37,161 bases of DNA, taken from the NCBI GenBank assembly GCA_030149525.1, contig JASBRJ010000294.1:1-37161 (forward strand), in the 5' to 3' direction. Below are positions 1,078 to 25,866 of the stretch, in pieces. Made by a program: the position numbers and the translations under genes. Numbering within the stretch: the stretch's first letter is position 1; every line of letters begins with the position of its first letter. The notes beneath the pieces were generated by a model. That model was not told where the DNA came from. It saw only the letters and a list, made by a program, of their open reading frames with translations, and did no database searches. Source of the DNA: a bacterium (GTDB taxonomy: Bacteria; Vulcanimicrobiota; Xenobia; Xenobiales; JADMJV01).

Positions 1078-2337
1078 ATGGACCTAGAAAACTTCGTCTC
1101 CAGCCAAGCCGGCGAAGGGAAACACGACTCGACAGGTGCCTTCACCTTGTCTCTAGAGCAGGCAAACCGGAAACTCGCCCAATATCGCTTCCCCCGCCAA
1201 CAAGCCTGGATCTGTCTCATCGTTCAGGCTGCCGTGGGATGGAAGTGCAAAGAGATTGCGGTCACCCAAACAGACCGTCAGACCAGATTTCGTCTCTCAA
1301 GAGCAATCACAGGTCCGCCTCCGTCTGAAGAGATACTCGGCAGCCTCGATCTGGAATTGGACGGGCACTCACCTCTGTCTCGTTTTTGCCTGGCGCTCCA
1401 CGCTCTGCTGAACCAGAAAGCCGAGGAGCCTCTCTCTCTTGTCGACGATGAACACAACCATCTGCTCCTCACGCTGTCTCACCCGAAACCGAAACGATTC
1501 GGTTGGTTACCTACGGGGGTGAGAAGGGAGCAGATCGACGTGGTTGGCGAACTTGAGAGGTTTGCCACCTACTCTCCTGTCCCGATAATCGTTGACGGAC
1601 GTCGGATCGTCGCATCTCCCCAGAATCTTATGAGCTTCGTGGGCCGCTTGCCCCGACCCGGTCTACCGACTCTGACTCTTCCTCACTTCCTTGCCGACCT
1701 GGGCGAGGTAGGTGCATTGCTGGAAATTCGATGCGGTGAAAACCTGGAAAGAAACCCGGCCAAGCGATGCTCTCTCCGTTGGATTCAACACGGTGTCGTG
1801 GTCGAGGAGCAGACAATCGACCTGGAAACCCAAGCCCTGGAAGCTTTTATCGTACTCAACGGGGATAATTTGAAGACGGACCTAACAGGATTTCGCCTCA
1901 TCGAAGACGCCGACAAGAGGAAGCGCCTCGTCTGCTCCATTCTCGACCTCATTCCCGCTCTGCGAAAAGCTCGTAAGTCTCTCAAGCTCAAAGGACTTGA
2001 AGCCGAACACGCTTCTTATCGCCGGCCCGGACCTCTAGAAGAGTTAGGGGACGGCTATTTCGTGGTGGTTCCAGCCCCGCTCCTGGCAACCGGAGGACTC
2101 CTGGTCATCCTCTCCCCCCTATTGGCATTCAGCGCAGGTCTTGGCCTCGCCGGGTTAGGCGCGGCAACTGTAGGCGCGGGCTTCATTAAGGCGGGGATGT
2201 GGTCGACAACAGACAACATCACCAAGCGCCGACTTGCCTCACAAGAAGAAATTCAAGCCAAATATAGTTTGCTGCTTCAGGAATTGTCCCAGTTGGAAGA
2301 ACTCCTTCAAGCTGTGGTGGCCCCCGGCAAGGTATAG
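1078..2337 (+). CDS. GHKL-like paralog with C-terminal hydrophobic segment (copy 1 of 3)
   Basis: 419 residues, first of three paralogs in this window (others at 11045-12487 and 14196-15335). Shared landmarks are an N-terminal D-S-x-G-x-F block (residues 17-22), a Trp44 / VQAAV helix (49-53), a P-x-x-V-D-G strand, an HGVVV block at about 238, and a T-DLTG block (Asp268). The VQAAV helix with the following beta strand resembles the N-box helix of GHKL ATPases (Hsp90, MutL), but the acidic and Asn residues that bind Mg-ATP are absent; this is inference. Residues ~321-366 are a Gly/Ala/Leu-rich hydrophobic stretch able to enter a membrane, followed by a charged helix. GGAGGAG at 1057-1063 is the ribosome site; TTG at 1075 is an alternative start. 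It leads a probable operon with the glutaminases, 46 bases upstream. Confidence 0.8.
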
Positions 2338-2383
2338 AAATCCCCCATCAGGAACCAGCGCCTATGAAAGTCCCCTTGCTCAG

Positions 2384-3415
2384 ATGCCGTCCCTCGAATT
2401 AGAAATTCAGTCCGCGCTGGAAGAGATCCACGCCAAACACAAAGATAACCAGAGCGGCAAGGTCGCCGATTATATCCCGGAACTTGCCAAGGCCGATCCC
2501 AACGCTTTCGGCATCTGCGTGGTGACGCGCGACGGCCAGGTCTTTGAAGTGGGCGACACCGAACAGCAATTCACTATCCAAAGTGTCTCCAAACCGTTCG
2601 TCTACGGCATGGCACTCCAGGATACCGGACGTGACGTGGTGCAACAGAAGGTGGATGTGGAGCCCACCGGCCACGCCTTCAATTCCATCATTAAATTGGA
2701 CGAGAAATCTCACCGTCCCCATAACCCAATGGTCAATGCAGGCGCCATCGCCACCACCTCCCTTCTCACCGGGGAGGGCCCTACGGGAAAGCTCAACCGA
2801 CTGATGGACTTCTTCGGCCGATTTGTGGGTCGCAGGCTTTACGCCGACATGTCTGTCTTCATGTCGGAGAGAGTGTCCGGGCACCGAAACCGGGCCACGG
2901 CCTACCTCATGCTGAATTTCGGGATGATCGACAATAGAGTGGAAGAGATCCTTGATCTGTATTTTCAACAGTGTTCACTTTTGGTGACAGCGAAAGATCT
3001 CGCTGTCATGGGGGCAACTCTTGCCAATCGCGGAGTTAACCCCATCACTCGGGAACGAGCCATCGAGGCCCGCTACGTTCAAGACCTCCTTTCAGTCATG
3101 TATACCTGTGGACTGTACGACTACGCGGGAGAGTGGGGATATCGGGTAGGAATGCCTGCCAAGAGCGGTGTGGGCGGTGGGATGCTGGCCGTAGTGCCGC
3201 AAAGACTGGGCATTGGCGTTTTCAGCCCTCCCCTCGACGAGCGAGGCAACAGTGTTCGAGCTATCAGAGTGTGCCAGGATCTCTCCACCCGCTTCGGCCT
3301 CCACATGTTCGACGCGTGGCTCAACGACTTTAAAGTCGCCCCCACCGTGGAAAGTGAGAGCTTTCCCACCGCCGAGATGGACGCCGTGAAAGCTGCAAAA
3401 CAAGAACACTCATGA
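2384..3415 (+). CDS. glsA: Glutaminase A (L-glutamine to L-glutamate and ammonia)
   Basis: 343 residues, near the usual ~310 of the serine-dependent, beta-lactamase-like glutaminase family. Family landmarks are all present: the catalytic S67-V-S-K70 (SxxK), N118 in [10 protein letters not shown]161-E162 with GHRNR to N169, Y193 in [10 protein letters not shown]245 in the [10 protein letters not shown] block, and the PAKSGVGGG loop with V263. The enzyme is expected in the cytoplasm, releasing ammonia from glutamine. The ATG at 2384 is chosen because homology begins immediately after it and the longer open frame upstream overlaps the preceding gene. The 3' end overlaps the next gene by ATGA, so the two are translationally coupled. 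The C-terminal ~30 residues are a charged extension. Confidence 0.95.
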
Positions 3416-4383
3416 CCGGATCTTTCGAAGATATCAAAGAGTTAGTTCGGGAACTCCACCAAAAATATGCGTCCTTCACTGAAGGCACGGTAGCAAGCTA
3501 CATTCCGGAGTTAGCCAAAGCCAATCCCAATCACTTTGGAATTTCGGTGGTAGACATCGACGGAGAGGTTTTTGAGATCGGCGATTGCTCCCAAAAATTT
3601 ACCATTCAATCAGCCATCAATCCCATCATTCACGGCCTCGCCCTAGAGCATGTGGGCCCTGACACCGTGGAGCATAGAATCGGCTTGGAGCCTAGCGGAA
3701 ACCCCTTCAACTCAATCTCTCTGGCCGAGCGAACAAGAGGCCCCGAAAACCCCATGATCAACGCGGGAGCAATCTGCTTGACAGATATGATTCGGGGCGA
3801 GAATCCCACCCAGAGATTGAGCGAAGTCCTGAGCGCCGTGGAACGATACGCCGGAGAGGAACTGGGGGTAGATATGCTGGTCTACTCCTCGGAAAAGCTC
3901 ACCGGGCACCGAAACCGAGCCATCGCCGAATTTCTCGTCAATTTCGGCCTCCTTCATAATCCACCGGAGCAAGTTCTCGACCTCTATTTTCAGCAGTGCT
4001 CCATAAGTCTCAATTGCACTCAACTGGCCACCGTGGCGGCAACCTTGGCCAATCGAGGGCTCAATCCGCGTACCGGCATATTGGCCGTCGCTCCCGACTA
4101 TCTGCGCCACATTCTGAGTGTTATGTTCAGTTGCGGTATGTATGAGATCACCGGTCAGTGGGCCTACGACGTAGGTCTGCCGGCCAAAAGCGGTATTGGT
4201 GGAGGACTCTTTGCCGTCGTACCAGGATGCATGGGGGTTGCGGTTTACAGCCCCCCACTGGGACGAGGTGGAGCCACTGCCCGCGGAGTGAAAGTTCTCC
4301 GAGAACTCTCCGACCGGCTGAATCTGCATCTCATGAGTGCTCGACATGGAGATTTCCATAGGAACAGTGATCCTGAACCCTGA
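3412..4383 (+). CDS. Glutaminase paralog with the SxxK lysine replaced by Asn (probable pseudoenzyme)
   Basis: 323 residues, aligning over its full length with the glutaminase just upstream, so it is a tandem duplicate. Most substrate-pocket residues remain: S67, N117 (NPMINAGAI), S160-E161, N168 (GHRNR), Y192 (LYFQQCS), Y244 ([10 protein letters not shown]) and the PAKSGIGGG loop. However, the catalytic pair reads S67-A-I-N70: the codon at 3619-3621 is AAT, so the general-base lysine is missing. The frame is intact and diverged throughout, which suggests selection rather than decay. From family knowledge, loss of this lysine should abolish or cripple hydrolysis while leaving glutamine binding possible. 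A role as a regulatory subunit or glutamine sensor is inference. The start codon overlaps the upstream stop (ATGA), and the response regulator gene begins inside its 3' end. Confidence 0.9.
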
Positions 4384-5080
4384 ATTTCCTAAGGTAGTGG
4401 ACCAGGAGATCGAAGCCAACATACTTGTCTTAGAGGACGACCGGGACATTCGCCAGATGCTGAGCGCCTTGCTTGAGAGCGAGGGCTTCCGGGTCAGTTG
4501 CGCCGCCGACGGTGTCACCGGGATGGCGGCGATCTCCCCGGAAACGGATCTATTGATTTTAGACATTGAGATGCCTTTTAAGAGCGGCTTCGAAGTGCTC
4601 AAGGAGTTGAGGCAAACCAACGCTCTACCCGTTCTCATTCTCTCCAGTCGTAGCGGAGGGGAAGATCGAGTCTCAGGATTAAATCTCGGCGCCGACGACT
4701 ACCTTGTTAAACCGTTCATACCAGAGGAACTGATAGCACGAGTGCGGGCCCTGCTGAGACGGGTACCAGGAAGTAAAACAGCCCTTGTGCCAACCAAAGG
4801 GCTCAATTTCAACGACGATATCGGCCGCGCCTATCTTGACGGGGAGCCCCTGGAGTTGACCCGTCGAGAGTACGACCTGCTCCATGTTCTGACAGGCGCC
4901 CCGGGCCGAAACTTCTCCCGAGACGAGCTGCTCGAACGAGTGTGGGGACTGGACTCTGACGTGACCACTCGCCAGGTCGATCTGGTGGTGAGTAAAATTC
5001 GGTCCAAATTGAAGAAAAAGGGCAGAACCGACCTGATCAGGTCGGTCTGGGGTGTAGGGTATCGGCTTGATGTGGATTAG
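4346..5080 (+). CDS. OmpR/PhoB-family response regulator
   Basis: A two-domain DNA-binding regulator. The receiver domain carries the acidic pair (LEDD), the phospho-acceptor Asp73 in LLILDIEMP, a conserved Ser after a hydrophobic strand (VLILSSRS) and Lys122 in DDYLVKPF. The C-terminal winged helix has the usual features: ELTRREYDLL, then SRDELLERVWG, then RQVDLVVSKIRSKL, and the final RSVWGVGYRL hairpin. No histidine kinase gene is next to it. Starts are ambiguous: GTG 4337 and ATG 4346 overlap the glutaminase paralog, while GTG 4397 lies just after that gene's stop and would give the more usual short N-terminus before ANILVLEDD. Its position at the end of the glutaminase operon suggests control of, or by, glutamine metabolism (inference). 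Confidence 0.93.
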   Translation: MEISIGTVILNPEFPKVVDQEIEANILVLEDDRDIRQMLSALLESEGFRVSCAADGVTGMAAISPETDLLILDIEMPFKSGFEVLKELRQTNALPVLILSSRSGGEDRVSGLNLGADDYLVKPFIPEELIARVRALLRRVPGSKTALVPTKGLNFNDDIGRAYLDGEPLELTRREYDLLHVLTGAPGRNFSRDELLERVWGLDSDVTTRQVDLVVSKIRSKLKKKGRTDLIRSVWGVGYRLDVD

Positions 5081-10689: not shown

Positions 10690-11052
10690 ATGCTCAAATC
10701 ATTTTTCACAGTTCTTCTCCTCGTCTTCCTTGCTTTGCCGATTCTCGCCGACGGCCGCACCATTGACATCACCAAACTCGGCAACGTCAACGGCCGAATG
10801 CATGTCTCCGGAGAAGACAAGCCTTACACGGGCAAGGTTCTTTTCCATTATCCCAGCGGAAAGCTTCGGCAAGAAGCTGTCTTTGTGAACGGTAAGGCCA
10901 ACGGGCCCACAACGGCCTATTACGAGTCCGGCAAAAAGTGGATGGAGTTCAACAATAAGAACGACAACGCTCACGGGTGGATGACAAAGTGGGACGAAAA
11001 CGGGAAAGTCGTTGAAAAAACCTATTGGGAGAACGGCAAGAAGATCAAATAG
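10690..11052 (+). CDS. Exported MORN-variant repeat protein (YwqK-like)
   Basis: 120 residues. A Sec signal (MLKSFFTVLLLVFLALPILA, cleavage likely after Ala20) is followed by three MORN-variant units, recognisable as GKVLFHYPSGKLRQEAVF, then GPTTAYYESGKKWMEF, then GWMTKWDENGKVVEKTYW. This is the pattern of the 'YwqK family' or MORN-2 repeats, where each unit forms a beta hairpin. Despite that family's database label as antitoxins, an exported single-domain version is more likely a periplasmic or surface binding protein. The ribosome site is an unusually G-rich AGGGGG five bases before ATG, preceded by a GAAGGA/TCCTTC hairpin. The 3' end overlaps the convergent gene by eight bases. Confidence 0.8.
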   Translation: MLKSFFTVLLLVFLALPILADGRTIDITKLGNVNGRMHVSGEDKPYTGKVLFHYPSGKLRQEAVFVNGKANGPTTAYYESGKKWMEFNNKNDNAHGWMTKWDENGKVVEKTYWENGKKIK

Positions 11053-12487
11053 GCGGCTGCTCGAGGTCGGTGAATTCGAGATTCACCAATTTTTCTCGGT
11101 CTTTCTTGTAAGCGCCCCTGTAAAGTCGCTGAACCGATTTTCTCGCGGCAAAATTTATACCCGCGAAGCAGCCCTGATAAAAGGCGTATACACCGACTCC
11201 CATAAGACCGAAACTCCAGCCTACGGGAAGGGCGGCTGTACCTGCAAACGCCAGAGTTCCCTTGAACCGTGTTTCTGAGATATTCAGGGGCATGAAATCG
11301 CTCACTTGCTCTATGAAAGCGTCAGAACAGTCGAGAACTTGAGGCTTGAGCCAGCGAAGTTCCTCGTTTCTCCGTTCCTCAACTCGATTCACCGCAAACT
11401 GAGTTAGGTCTAGCTCTTCGAAATCAACCGGTACTATGACACAGTCACCTCCACTGCTATCGTTACCGAACTCGATACCCATAACCTTTTGCGCCTCTCT
11501 CAGCCGAATAGGAACGCGCTGAACCATGGCACCATCCTGCACGAAATAGAGGGCCGTTCGACGGCCTTCCCCCAGAGGTGATACCAGAACTCGACCGGCA
11601 GTTTCGTTCTCGTACACCCACTCCATAAATCGGTCGTTGAGATACAGTGGCTTTCTTAACAAGACAGCCTCACCTTTGCCGGTCTGAACCTCCTTCCGCG
11701 GTCCGGGATTATAACCATCAACTTTCAAAAAAGGGCGACCCGCTTCTGGGGGATAGTATCGAAGGTAACAGTTGACAGGGGGGGAGACAATGTTTTGAGA
11801 ACGCCGGCTGAGGGACGCTGAGGTCAAGTAACTCCGAAACATGAGTGGACTGTCGTATCGGCAATCCATCAGTTTTCCGTCTATTCGAAGGGGCACCGGA
11901 GAGGCCCAACAGCGAGTGAGAAGCTCTATGTGCTCTGCTGCTGTCCCCTTGAGAAGTTGCCTCACATCAGTATTTAGAGCCTTGCCGAGTTTGACCATCC
12001 GATACGGTCTCCGAATCACATAAGTGAGACGTGCCACCTGGGAGCAGCTATCAGGGTCCTGAATGTGATGAGTCTCCCCTTCGGAGAGAGCTACCACGTC
12101 TTTTCCGTCGGGACCGACTACCTGAATGAGAAACGAGACTCCCTCGCCTGCAAAACTGGTGCGAATACCCGTGGTCAGGTGAAGAAGAAACGGGTCTTTG
12201 GACAGTTGACCCGAGCGAACTTGTTCGAAGAGCTTAAGTGCCGTAGGTAGCTTTTGAGAATCGAAGCTCACATCGACTTTGTTGCGGCCGAGCTTGATAT
12301 CGACCTCGGTGGCCTCTCCCCTGACGGCTGCCTGAACCATCTTTACAATCCACAGAGCCTCATCGGGAAGCTGTGACTCGGAGAGCTTCTTGAGGGCTCG
12401 AGCTTGATCCACGGTGAAACCGAGAGTCTCCTTAGCTCCGCCCTCGGCGATCAATCCCTGAACATATTGCTCGACCCCCGAGTTCAT
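11045..12487 (-). CDS. GHKL-like paralog with C-terminal hydrophobic segment (copy 2 of 3)
   Basis: 480 residues, the longest of the three paralogs. Landmarks in order are LGFTVDQARALKKL (22-35), Trp46 followed by KMVQAAVRGEATEVDIKL (49-66), VPLRIDG, VQDGAMV and LDLTQF. The KMVQAAV segment plus the EVDIKL strand strongly recalls the N-box region of Hsp90/MutL-type ATPases, yet the Glu and Asn that act on Mg-ATP are replaced. Near the C-terminus is a hydrophobic stretch (GTLAFAGTAALPVGWSFGLMGVG and on) followed by a Lys/Arg-rich helix. It starts at ATG 12487, overlapping the stop of the thioredoxin-like gene by one base (TAATG), so they are co-translated. Function unknown. The family resemblance among the three copies is seen directly; the ATPase-fold link is inference. 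Confidence 0.8.
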   Translation of the reverse strand: MNSGVEQYVQGLIAEGGAKETLGFTVDQARALKKLSESQLPDEALWIVKMVQAAVRGEATEVDIKLGRNKVDVSFDSQKLPTALKLFEQVRSGQLSKDPFLLHLTTGIRTSFAGEGVSFLIQVVGPDGKDVVALSEGETHHIQDPDSCSQVARLTYVIRRPYRMVKLGKALNTDVRQLLKGTAAEHIELLTRCWASPVPLRIDGKLMDCRYDSPLMFRSYLTSASLSRRSQNIVSPPVNCYLRYYPPEAGRPFLKVDGYNPGPRKEVQTGKGEAVLLRKPLYLNDRFMEWVYENETAGRVLVSPLGEGRRTALYFVQDGAMVQRVPIRLREAQKVMGIEFGNDSSGGDCVIVPVDFEELDLTQFAVNRVEERRNEELRWLKPQVLDCSDAFIEQVSDFMPLNISETRFKGTLAFAGTAALPVGWSFGLMGVGVYAFYQGCFAGINFAARKSVQRLYRGAYKKDREKLVNLEFTDLEQPPI

Positions 12488-14085: not shown

Positions 14086-14175
14086 AAGCGTTCCAACCTC
14101 TTTGCAGACACACTGCCGACCTCCTGGAAAGACTCAGTAAGCCCCAGCACCATTCAGCCGAACAGACGAAGATGC

Positions 14176-14181
14176 TATACT
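14176..14181 (+). promoter_or_regulatory. Candidate -10 (TATACT) for the third GHKL-like gene
   Basis: TATACT ends 14 bases before the preferred ATG at 14196. Transcription would begin about 8 bases upstream of that ATG, so the message may be nearly leaderless; no Shine-Dalgarno is seen, consistent with this. Confidence 0.45.
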
Positions 14182-14195
14182 CGAACCACACGATC

Positions 14196-15335
14196 ATGCA
14201 GAACTTCGACTTTATAGAGAAAGCGCGTGGGGCTGGAGAATTCGACTCTGAAGGGAAGTTCACCACCGACCTGGACAGCATGAGAGAAAAGCTCTCGGCT
14301 CATCTCCACGTCACCCGGGGCGTCTGGCTGGTGGCGCTTCTACAGACCCTAACAGCCTGCGAGATAAGCTCAATTTCTATGTCTCGTTACTCTCGCCATC
14401 TGGAACTGCGCTTCCCTTCCGCCAACTTGCCATCTTTGCGCCGCCTCCATGCGACACTTACCAGCAAGGCTCGCGACAGTCTCACCCCCCAGGAGCAGAA
14501 CCTGCTGAGAGCGCTCATAAGCCTTACTCCCGGTTTAGATTTCAGCTGGTCGTTTCTAGGTCAAAGGCTCAACCGTTGGGACGGCCACTGGACAATCGAC
14601 GAAGTCGCCACCCGGGAGCTCCATCGTATCGAAATTCGTGCCCCTCGAAGAACCGATTGGGATGAGATTTTAGAAACCGCTAGCCAACTCTATCCCCTCC
14701 CTCCTCTCCATCTCACTCTAGACGGCGAGAAATGCTGGAAACACCTGGAGTGCGGCCGACAAAGCAAGCTTCTCTTTCGCCGCAAAGCCGATACCGAAGC
14801 GTGGTGTCTCATCAGATTAGGACTCAGCAAAGAACCCAGCCATGCCGTTCATTTCTTGAAACATGGGGTCATCGTCCATAGCGAACCACTCGCCTTTCAT
14901 TCTCAGCTGGTTTGTATCGACATCTTCCAGGCGGAACCGAACCTTGAGACCGACCTCACAGGTCTTGCCATACGCCTCAACGGGCAAAATACGGAGATCA
15001 TAAAAAGGCATCAGAATCTCATCTCCGGACACCTAAGAGAGCTCCTCTCCGATCTCATCAGCCGGCCTCGCTTACCCCTCAGATACGAAGAACAGCAACG
15101 CTATGAGTCGGCGGTGGGCTCGGCCGTCGCTTTAGGAGGCCTGGCCTTCCTTCAGCTCCCCTTCTTCCCACCTCTGCTTACCCTCGGGATAGGAACCGCC
15201 ATGGCCACCGGGATGCTGGTCCGAGCCGGACTCGTCCGCAAGCACCAGCCCTGGCGTGGCGAACAAGGCTTCCACAACATACGTCGAGACCTAGTGGAGA
15301 TCCGGAAAACCATCGACAAGCGGGGTGACCCGTGA
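14196..15335 (+). CDS. GHKL-like paralog with C-terminal hydrophobic segment (copy 3 of 3)
   Basis: 379 residues from ATG 14196. This start is preferred to the ATG at 14172 because it places the D-S-E-G-K-F block at residues 17-22 and Trp44 exactly as in the paralog at 1078, and because a -10 hexamer overlaps the upstream ATG. The VQAAV helix is LLQTL here, so this is the most degenerate copy. PLHLTLDGE, LKHGVIV and LETDLTGLAI match the other copies. Residues ~308-345 are a hydrophobic segment (GSAVALGGLAFLQLPFFPPL) with a Gly/Ala-rich tail, then a basic C-terminus. It is divergent from the dehydrogenase gene. Function unknown. Confidence 0.78.
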   Translation: MQNFDFIEKARGAGEFDSEGKFTTDLDSMREKLSAHLHVTRGVWLVALLQTLTACEISSISMSRYSRHLELRFPSANLPSLRRLHATLTSKARDSLTPQEQNLLRALISLTPGLDFSWSFLGQRLNRWDGHWTIDEVATRELHRIEIRAPRRTDWDEILETASQLYPLPPLHLTLDGEKCWKHLECGRQSKLLFRRKADTEAWCLIRLGLSKEPSHAVHFLKHGVIVHSEPLAFHSQLVCIDIFQAEPNLETDLTGLAIRLNGQNTEIIKRHQNLISGHLRELLSDLISRPRLPLRYEEQQRYESAVGSAVALGGLAFLQLPFFPPLLTLGIGTAMATGMLVRAGLVRKHQPWRGEQGFHNIRRDLVEIRKTIDKRGDP

Positions 15336-25576: not shown

Positions 25577-25631
25577 CTGCACACAATCTGCACCAAACCT
25601 TGACCCCGCCTCCATTTTAGGCCTGTAAGAT
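25577..25631 (+). promoter_or_regulatory. Promoter-like unit of candidate small RNA A
   Basis: Starts with CTGCACACAATCTGCAC, has TTGACC (25600-25605) as a possible -35 and TAAGAT (25626-25631) as a -10. The -35/-10 spacing of 20 is long. The box starts exactly 49 bases before the -10, as in the second unit. Confidence 0.5.
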
Positions 25632-25637
25632 ACAGAG

Positions 25638-25705
25638 GAAGCACCGCTCCGAACTCATTTTGACCCCCCCCGACGTTGAGTTCCAAGCGGTGTTTTATTT
25701 ATTTG
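25638..25705 (+). ncRNA. Candidate small RNA A: hairpin with C-rich loop and U-rich tail
   Basis: Arms 25642-25657 and 25677-25692 form 7 + 7 pairs (CACCGCT with AGCGGTG, GAACTCA with TGAGTTC) around a 2x2 internal loop. The 19-base loop contains TTGAC, eight C in a row and GAC. TTTTATTTATTT follows at once, so the hairpin doubles as an intrinsic terminator. The 5' end is inferred from the -10 at 25626. The loop sequence and upstream box recur in unit B while the stem does not. It would be a ~65-nt RNA with an anti-Shine-Dalgarno type seed. It could alternatively be only a terminator for the TPR gene, which ends about 100 bases upstream. Confidence 0.6.
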
Positions 25706-25731
25706 CCGGAAAACCGTAAGACCGGCGCCCC

Positions 25732-25786
25732 CTGCACACAATCTTCACGCTCTTTGCATCGCTAGTGCAAGGCCATATCTTATAAT
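25732..25786 (+). promoter_or_regulatory. Promoter-like unit of candidate small RNA B
   Basis: Begins with CTGCACACAATCTTCAC, one mismatch in 17 from unit A, contains TTGCAT (25754-25759) and a perfect TATAAT (25781-25786). The box-to-TATAAT offset is 49 bases, as in unit A. Confidence 0.55.
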
Positions 25787-25792
25787 ATTAAG

Positions 25793-25866
25793 TGAGCGGA
25801 GGTCGCAGACACCCTTGACCCCTCCCCCCCGACTTTGGAGTTTGCGACCACGCTCTTTTTATTTGC
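25793..25866 (+). ncRNA. Candidate small RNA B: hairpin with C-rich loop and U-rich tail
   Basis: Arms 25795-25807 and 25843-25854 pair as AGCG/CGCT and GGTCGCA/TGCGACC around a small internal loop, and the stem can extend inward with GAC and CC pairs (one A-A mismatch). The loop holds TTGACCCC, T, seven C and GAC, matching unit A. CTTTTTATTTG follows. The stem sequence is unrelated to that of A. The nearest gene start is 25945, about 80 bases on. It may be a ~70-nt RNA sibling of A, or the leader/attenuator of the PilZ gene. Confidence 0.6.

Follow-up and report, generated by a model that had tools for sequence, protein, structure and literature searches.

Do two consecutive promoter-hairpin units in the genome of a Ca. 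Eremiobacterota bacterium encode sibling small RNAs, and what might their C-rich loop be for? The units, at 25577-25704 and 25732-25864, lie in a window of 37,161 nucleotides (the whole stretch of DNA that was analysed, contig C234), and are two of the six copies found in this genome of 8.27 Mb.

Anatomy of the two units

The original prediction described, from the letters alone, a box (CTGCACACAATCT) at 25577 and again at 25732, 155 bases further on, followed in both units by a -10 hexamer exactly +49 from the box, by stems that are unrelated in sequence and nevertheless pair, and by T-rich tails. All of this is borne out by the sequence (Table 1). Two elements had to be redrawn. The box is indeed present in both units, but it opens a series of four 11-bp direct repeats and does not stand alone. 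Likewise, both loops are C-rich, but CCCCUCCCC, which had been taken as a common feature, is confined to unit 2; an uninterrupted C-run is found in unit 1 and in nearly all relatives. On folding, the unit 1 hairpin reaches -26.7 kcal/mol (z = -6.8) with a two-part stem (CACCGCT/AGCGGTG and GAACTCA/TGAGTTC), and that of unit 2 (GAGCG..GGTCGCA/TGCGACC..CGCTC) reaches -21.9 kcal/mol (z = -3.4); no shuffled sequence was as stable as either. The unit 1 RNA scores 82.6 bits against covariance model R1, of which it is itself one of the four seed sequences.

Table 1. Positions of observed and predicted features of the two units.
Feature	Position	Strand	Remark
Unit 1, four tandem 11-bp repeats CTGCACACAAT CTGCACCAAAC CTTGACCCCGC CTCCATTTTAG	25577..25620	+	Includes the box; predicted to bind an OmpR/PhoB-type response regulator
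Unit 1, -10 TAAGAT	25626..25631	+	10 bp past the last CTKSAY hexamer
Unit 1, predicted RNA of ~67 nt, hairpin and U-rich tail TTTTATTTATTT	25638..25704	+	Start deduced from the -10
Unit 1, stem CACCGCT/AGCGGTG	25642-25648 / 25686-25692	+	Sequence
Unit 1, conserved loop TTGACCCCCCCCGAC, proposed seed	25660..25674	+	TGACCCCCCCC(C)GAC recurrent in relatives
Unit 2, four tandem 11-bp repeats CTGCACACAAT CTTCACGCTCT TTGCATCGCTA GTGCAAGGCCA	25732..25775	+	
Unit 2, -10 TATAAT	25781..25786	+	Sequence
Unit 2, predicted RNA of ~72 nt, U-rich tail TTTTTATTT	25793..25864	+	Start deduced from the -10
Unit 2, stem GGTCGCA/TGCGACC	25801-25807 / 25843-25849	+	Sequence
Unit 2, loop TTGACCCCTCCCCCCCGAC, proposed seed, one U interrupting the C-run	25815..25833	+	Own-genome copies and 46-unit comparison

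A family with a constant loop and rewritten stems

The hairpin recurs at four further sites in the same genome. DNA and pattern searches located copies at C351:4291, C152:10022 (-) and C252:9646 (-), and a search with the box and a promoter model added a sixth at C223:24587-24639 (-), whose hairpin reads GCCGG-aa-CGCCTC-ACACTCCCTCCCCCGACC-GAGGCG-ga-CCGGC-TTCTTTCTTT. All six copies are intergenic; the genes that neighbour the loci are unrelated to each other and offer no functional clue. A weak match to the promoter model at C232:30707 of this genome (L124; 18.5 bits, E 0.0165) is followed by a long dyad, CAGCACAA...TTGTGCTG, which could represent a further RNA whose loop differs.

A first covariance model, built from four own-genome copies, recovered hairpins with the same loop and different stems in sister genomes. 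With the loop as sole query (TGACCCC..CCCCGAC), each of the six nearest relatives (G001-G006) yielded two to four pure C-run matches, with controls mostly near zero, and a strong terminator hairpin surrounds 18 of the 20 pure C-run matches. Three loop-pattern matches (L087, L089, L100) had no hairpin and were discarded as chance. When ~85,000 genomes were scanned with one form of the loop, 16 of the 18 stretches returned came from genomes of the Ca. Eremiobacterota group; the two from outside the phylum, in Kocuria and a deltaproteobacterium, were again without a hairpin. The family as now defined comprises 46 units in 11 genomes of a single order, with two to six units per genome. In the sister genus, five of five genomes hold one tandem pair, its members 128-238 bp apart, at a locus with conserved neighbours that are not those of the window.

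The original prediction had named related genomes as the place where it could fail, through loss of the loop or absence of covariation in the stems; in the related genomes searched, the loop is conserved and the stems covary. We aligned 21 hairpins, 18 of which had been detected through the loop sequence only. Of the alignment cells, 93.9% pair, and both sides have changed in 10 of the 14 stem pairs; the covariation score is 0.666 against 0.269 +/- 0.027 for shuffled and at most 0.225 for slid controls. When the model derived from these hairpins was applied to 149 phylum genomes, strong matches (at least 40 bits) were confined to families f1, f2 and f3 of the one order, and the next best match, at 34.7 bits, lies below a gap in the scores. 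Of the weak matches of models R1 and R3 outside the order, those inspected were ordinary GC-rich terminators or matches in coding sequence, and the R3 matches all fall under the clear score gap.

The loop is fixed in some respects and free in others. GA directly follows the C-run in 46 of 46 units, and the preceding triplet is TGA in 31, GTG in 11, CCT in two, and CGA and TGT in one each. The C-run itself is eight long in 28 of the 46 units and 5, 7, 9, 10 or 11 long in the others. One locus seen in three genomes (G010:C65, L183; G011:C302, L188; G012:C137, L190) has runs of 10, 11 and 10, a difference expected of a slippery homopolymer and one that could tune pairing strength. Because the modelled hairpin begins 4-10 nt past the -10 in most units, the RNA would consist essentially of a terminator hairpin and its tail (for example UUAUUUAUUU), with a predicted size of ~50-75 nt across the family.

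No Rfam family matches in the window at the gathering threshold, and a relaxed threshold yielded a sole chance match of 9.8 bits (E 6.2) to an unrelated family. For this largely uncultured order we found no described small-RNA family, Rfam giving no match and a literature search nothing relevant. The proposal that the units are sibling small-RNA candidates with a maintained structure and loop is thus upheld by the 46 units, their covariation and the absence of an Rfam match. We conclude that this is almost certainly a real family of conserved structured RNAs; it is new, in that it was not listed before, and of a kind already known.

Promoter repeats and a candidate regulon

Aligned on the -10, the own-genome copies carry four tandem 11-bp repeats of consensus CTKSAY-N5, the last CTKSAY hexamer ending 10 bp upstream of the -10. 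Across five copies, position 2 of the repeat is T in 20 of 20 cases and position 5 is A in 20 of 20, and 77 of 165 positions are identical at a lag of 11 where ~42 are expected, a value reached in 0 of 20,000 shuffles. The sixth copy retains three of these four repeats, in register, and repeats and -10 stand in one register in all six copies. Direct repeats with an 11-bp period some 10 bp upstream of the -10, as present here, are a feature of OmpR/PhoB-type promoters. CiaR is a member of the OmpR family. Because the geometry equals the rule for csRNA genes and CiaR, we infer that a response regulator of the OmpR-family class acts at the CTKSAY repeats.

Scanning the genome for CTKSAY in three repeats, one mismatch being allowed, returned ten matches, six of them in the units, against none in a reversed control. 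Repeats lie at three places outside the units, with an in-register -10 before protein genes at two (C324 and C44). At C324 (L132:4447-4725, -), CTGCACCGACT CTACACTGAAA TTCGATTAAGG TTCAACATGTC stand upstream of the start of a 92-aa protein of unassigned family, and TATAAT follows in precisely the register of the RNA promoters. At C44 (L144:1505-5315, -), 11-bp repeats and an in-register -10-like TAATGT precede a cluster for a coiled-coil protein, a GAF-adenylate/guanylate cyclase, a receiver-only regulator and a PAS histidine kinase; this cluster possibly belongs to the same regulon as the RNAs. At the third place, C355:36914 (L133), CTTGA occurs three times, perfect each time, at 11-bp intervals upstream of a gene for a 234-aa protein that has no Pfam match, and a clear in-register -10 was not seen there. 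The idea that the repeats are Pho boxes, with the same box expected ahead of pstS, gained no support: no pstS homologue of TIGR02136 was detected in the own genome.

CTKSAY repeats were not seen in the sister genus, where the units have a different upstream element, which weakens the assignment of a regulator. At G010:C63 (L186) and its equivalents in G011-G013, the f3 units are preceded by two GGAC-type elements spaced ~22 bp from each other, such as GGACGAATGTCC and AGGACGGACGTCCT; they form a regulator site unlike the CTKSAY repeats of the own genome. A common upstream dyad sought in the relatives gave suggestive cases (GGTAGTATTCTACC, AGGACGGACGTCCT) that were, taken singly, seldom better than shuffles.

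The window also encodes an OmpR-family response regulator (4337-5080; Pfam Response_reg and Trans_reg_C), directly downstream of two adjacent genes that look glutaminase-like by eye (2234-3415 and 3412-4383). As a matter apart from the units, three window genes (1075-2337, 11045-12487 and 14172-15335) and two elsewhere (L018:4476-5666 and L020:5202-6551) encode proteins of ~390-480 aa that look alike by eye and have a D-S-x-G-x-F-T motif close to the N-terminus; those of L018 and L020 match each other in BLAST, and no Pfam family matches the L018 protein.

Association with Hfq

Hfq (PF17209) is encoded in 97 of the 149 phylum genomes. In the order, every one of the 11 genomes with the RNA encodes Hfq, and the four lacking the RNA (G007, G008, G009 and G014) do not; these four are small, 71-90% complete and all of one family. 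This concordance supports dependence of the RNAs on Hfq and falls short of proof because the independent losses are few and occurred in reduced and partly incomplete genomes. By eye, the own-genome Hfq has the canonical Sm motifs LQD, DQF and YKH; the gene adjoining it we take to be miaA. The features of an Hfq-type small RNA, an intrinsic terminator and a U-rich tail (such as TTTTATTTATTT) in an Hfq-bearing genome, are present.

Possible targets of the loop

The original prediction also held that the loop complements ribosome sites of the GGAGG type. As a general rule this is not supported: loops are usually C7-C11, and we saw no excess of G-runs or loop near-complements, whether close to start codons or across the genome. 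Target statistics were based on ~0.48 Mb of the own genome, where the Shine-Dalgarno motifs are AGGAG, GGAGG and GAGGA, and 0.42 Mb of one relative. Runs of five Gs precede 5 of 376 starts in the own genome, against four further upstream, and 5 of 328 in the relative, against nine, with no enrichment in either. Near-complements of the loop, counted genome-wide in seven genomes, are at or near control levels. By duplex energy, a C8 loop does not favour the initiation region in the own genome and favours it slightly in G001, the relative (-30 to -5), and the loops interrupted by U (units 2 and 6) lean slightly towards -30 to -5 in both genomes. On these results, the typical member is unlikely to act on Shine-Dalgarno sites in general; it may act on a restricted set of targets. 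Perfect complements, GTCGGGGGGGTCA, were inspected as targets or new units and rejected: two are chance occurrences without a hairpin, and the third is the unit at G004:C10.

Comparison with known small RNAs

In function the family comes nearest to RepG, LhrC, the csRNAs and the cuckoo RNAs, and on the features tested it belongs to none of these; LhrC and RepG, named as parallels in the original prediction, are apt as functional analogues but are not homologues. RepG of Helicobacter pylori pairs with homopolymeric G-repeats through a C/U-rich seed in the loop of its terminator hairpin, and this terminator loop alone represses a G-repeat leader (PMC8295292). The units here likewise place a C-rich loop in a terminator hairpin. 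RepG, however, is single-copy with two stem-loops and a C/U-rich loop, whereas the present family is multicopy, has one hairpin and a C7-11 loop, belongs to another phylum and has no Rfam match. LhrC1-5 of Listeria monocytogenes are multiple, partly clustered copies with C-rich loop motifs, controlled by the response regulator LisR (PMC4132741), and resemble the family in their number per genome, partial clustering and loops. The LhrC copies are near-identical, with several UCCC sites and two stem-loops; the six copies here have common direct repeats but stems that differ, only the loop being fixed.

Streptococcal csRNA genes were found by TTTAAG-N5-TTTAAG, 10 bp from the -10, the site of the response regulator CiaR (PMC3091779). 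These too are multicopy small-RNA genes with 11-bp-spaced direct repeats, 10 bp to the -10 and then a terminator. They differ in having two TTTAAG repeats instead of four of CTKSAY-N5, and a seed, complementary to Shine-Dalgarno and AUG sequences, that is single-stranded between two stem-loops instead of carried by a single hairpin. The cuckoo or alpha-r14 RNAs of rhizobia (NfeR1) display an ultraconserved C-rich loop motif on strongly differing stems (PMC10746234), the likeness being a constant loop on divergent stems. There, CCUCCUCCC occurs in three hairpins of one RNA; here, one hairpin bears a C-run and GA, in another phylum.

Discussion

The best explanation, which we favour with moderate confidence, is that the units encode co-regulated, trans-acting small RNAs, probably assisted by Hfq, with the terminator's C-loop as the seed. 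Units 1 and 2 would be genes of a multicopy family in which each RNA is almost nothing other than an intrinsic-terminator hairpin of ~50-75 nt. The genes are intergenic with their own promoter-like sequence upstream, and an OmpR/PhoB-family response regulator would turn on the whole set together. The loop is constant (UGA or UGC, C7-11, GA) and the stems are rewritten by compensatory change, which suggests a common job such as gripping G-rich messages. Hfq would bind the U-rich tail, and the single-stranded C-run would pair with G-rich segments in a limited number of mRNAs, altering their translation or stability much as the C/U-rich terminator loop of RepG does in Helicobacter. A sparer version, which we regard as doubtful, is a bare terminator whose homopolymeric, length-variable C loop does all the work, whether by reading G-runs in mRNA or by baiting an undescribed poly-C-binding protein, with several interchangeable copies under one regulator.

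Other readings account for part of these data. CsrA sponges titrate their protein with GGA loops, and the RNAs could in a similar way be sponges or signals, the loop of C-run and GA being bound by an RNA-binding protein that the copies titrate. We judge this rather unlikely. The detailed fixation of the loop (GA throughout, usually UGA or UG before the Cs) on free stems, the several co-regulated copies per genome and the lack of an excess of complementary sites would all suit it; yet the C-run varies from 7 to 11, even at the one locus with runs of 10, 11 and 10 (G010, G011, G012), and two own-genome copies have Us within it, features more in keeping with base pairing or a loosely binding protein than with tight recognition. 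We know of no bacterial poly-C sponge system. That the loops sequester GGAGG-type sites of many mRNAs, as first proposed, appears improbable: unit 2 (CCCCUCCCC) and copy 6 (CUCCCUCCCCC) are complementary to GGGGAGGGG-type sites and duplex energy in G001 is slightly better at -30 to -5, but the usual unbroken C-run is mismatched to the GGAGG and AGGAG motifs found, and the C8 loop of the own genome has no initiation-region preference.

The hairpin and tail would serve equally well as a plain terminator, and nearly all units are intergenic, some between convergent genes, ending in terminator-like stems and U-runs. To read them solely as terminators or transcriptional insulators, with the promoter-like sequence there by chance, is very improbable nonetheless, since a terminator needs neither a fixed 14-base loop nor exactly spaced upstream repeats, stopping transcription does not take two consecutive units, and a clear score gap divides the family from ordinary terminators. 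Small mobile or repetitive elements spreading within genomes would explain several dispersed copies in varied contexts and stem families common within a genus. Against this, there are only 2-6 copies per genome, synteny between species holds for many loci, compensatory change is strong and the promoter geometry is conserved, and we find the reading scarcely credible.

Co-regulated small RNAs with a seed in the terminator loop remain our preferred reading. The family shows unusually cleanly what selection keeps in a small RNA: the loop stays and the rest is replaced. It also offers a covariance model, an exactly spaced promoter signature and an association with Hfq, all of them testable. If the seed acts in the proposed way, these RNAs would have the smallest layout that we know of, a promoter followed by a terminator whose loop is active.
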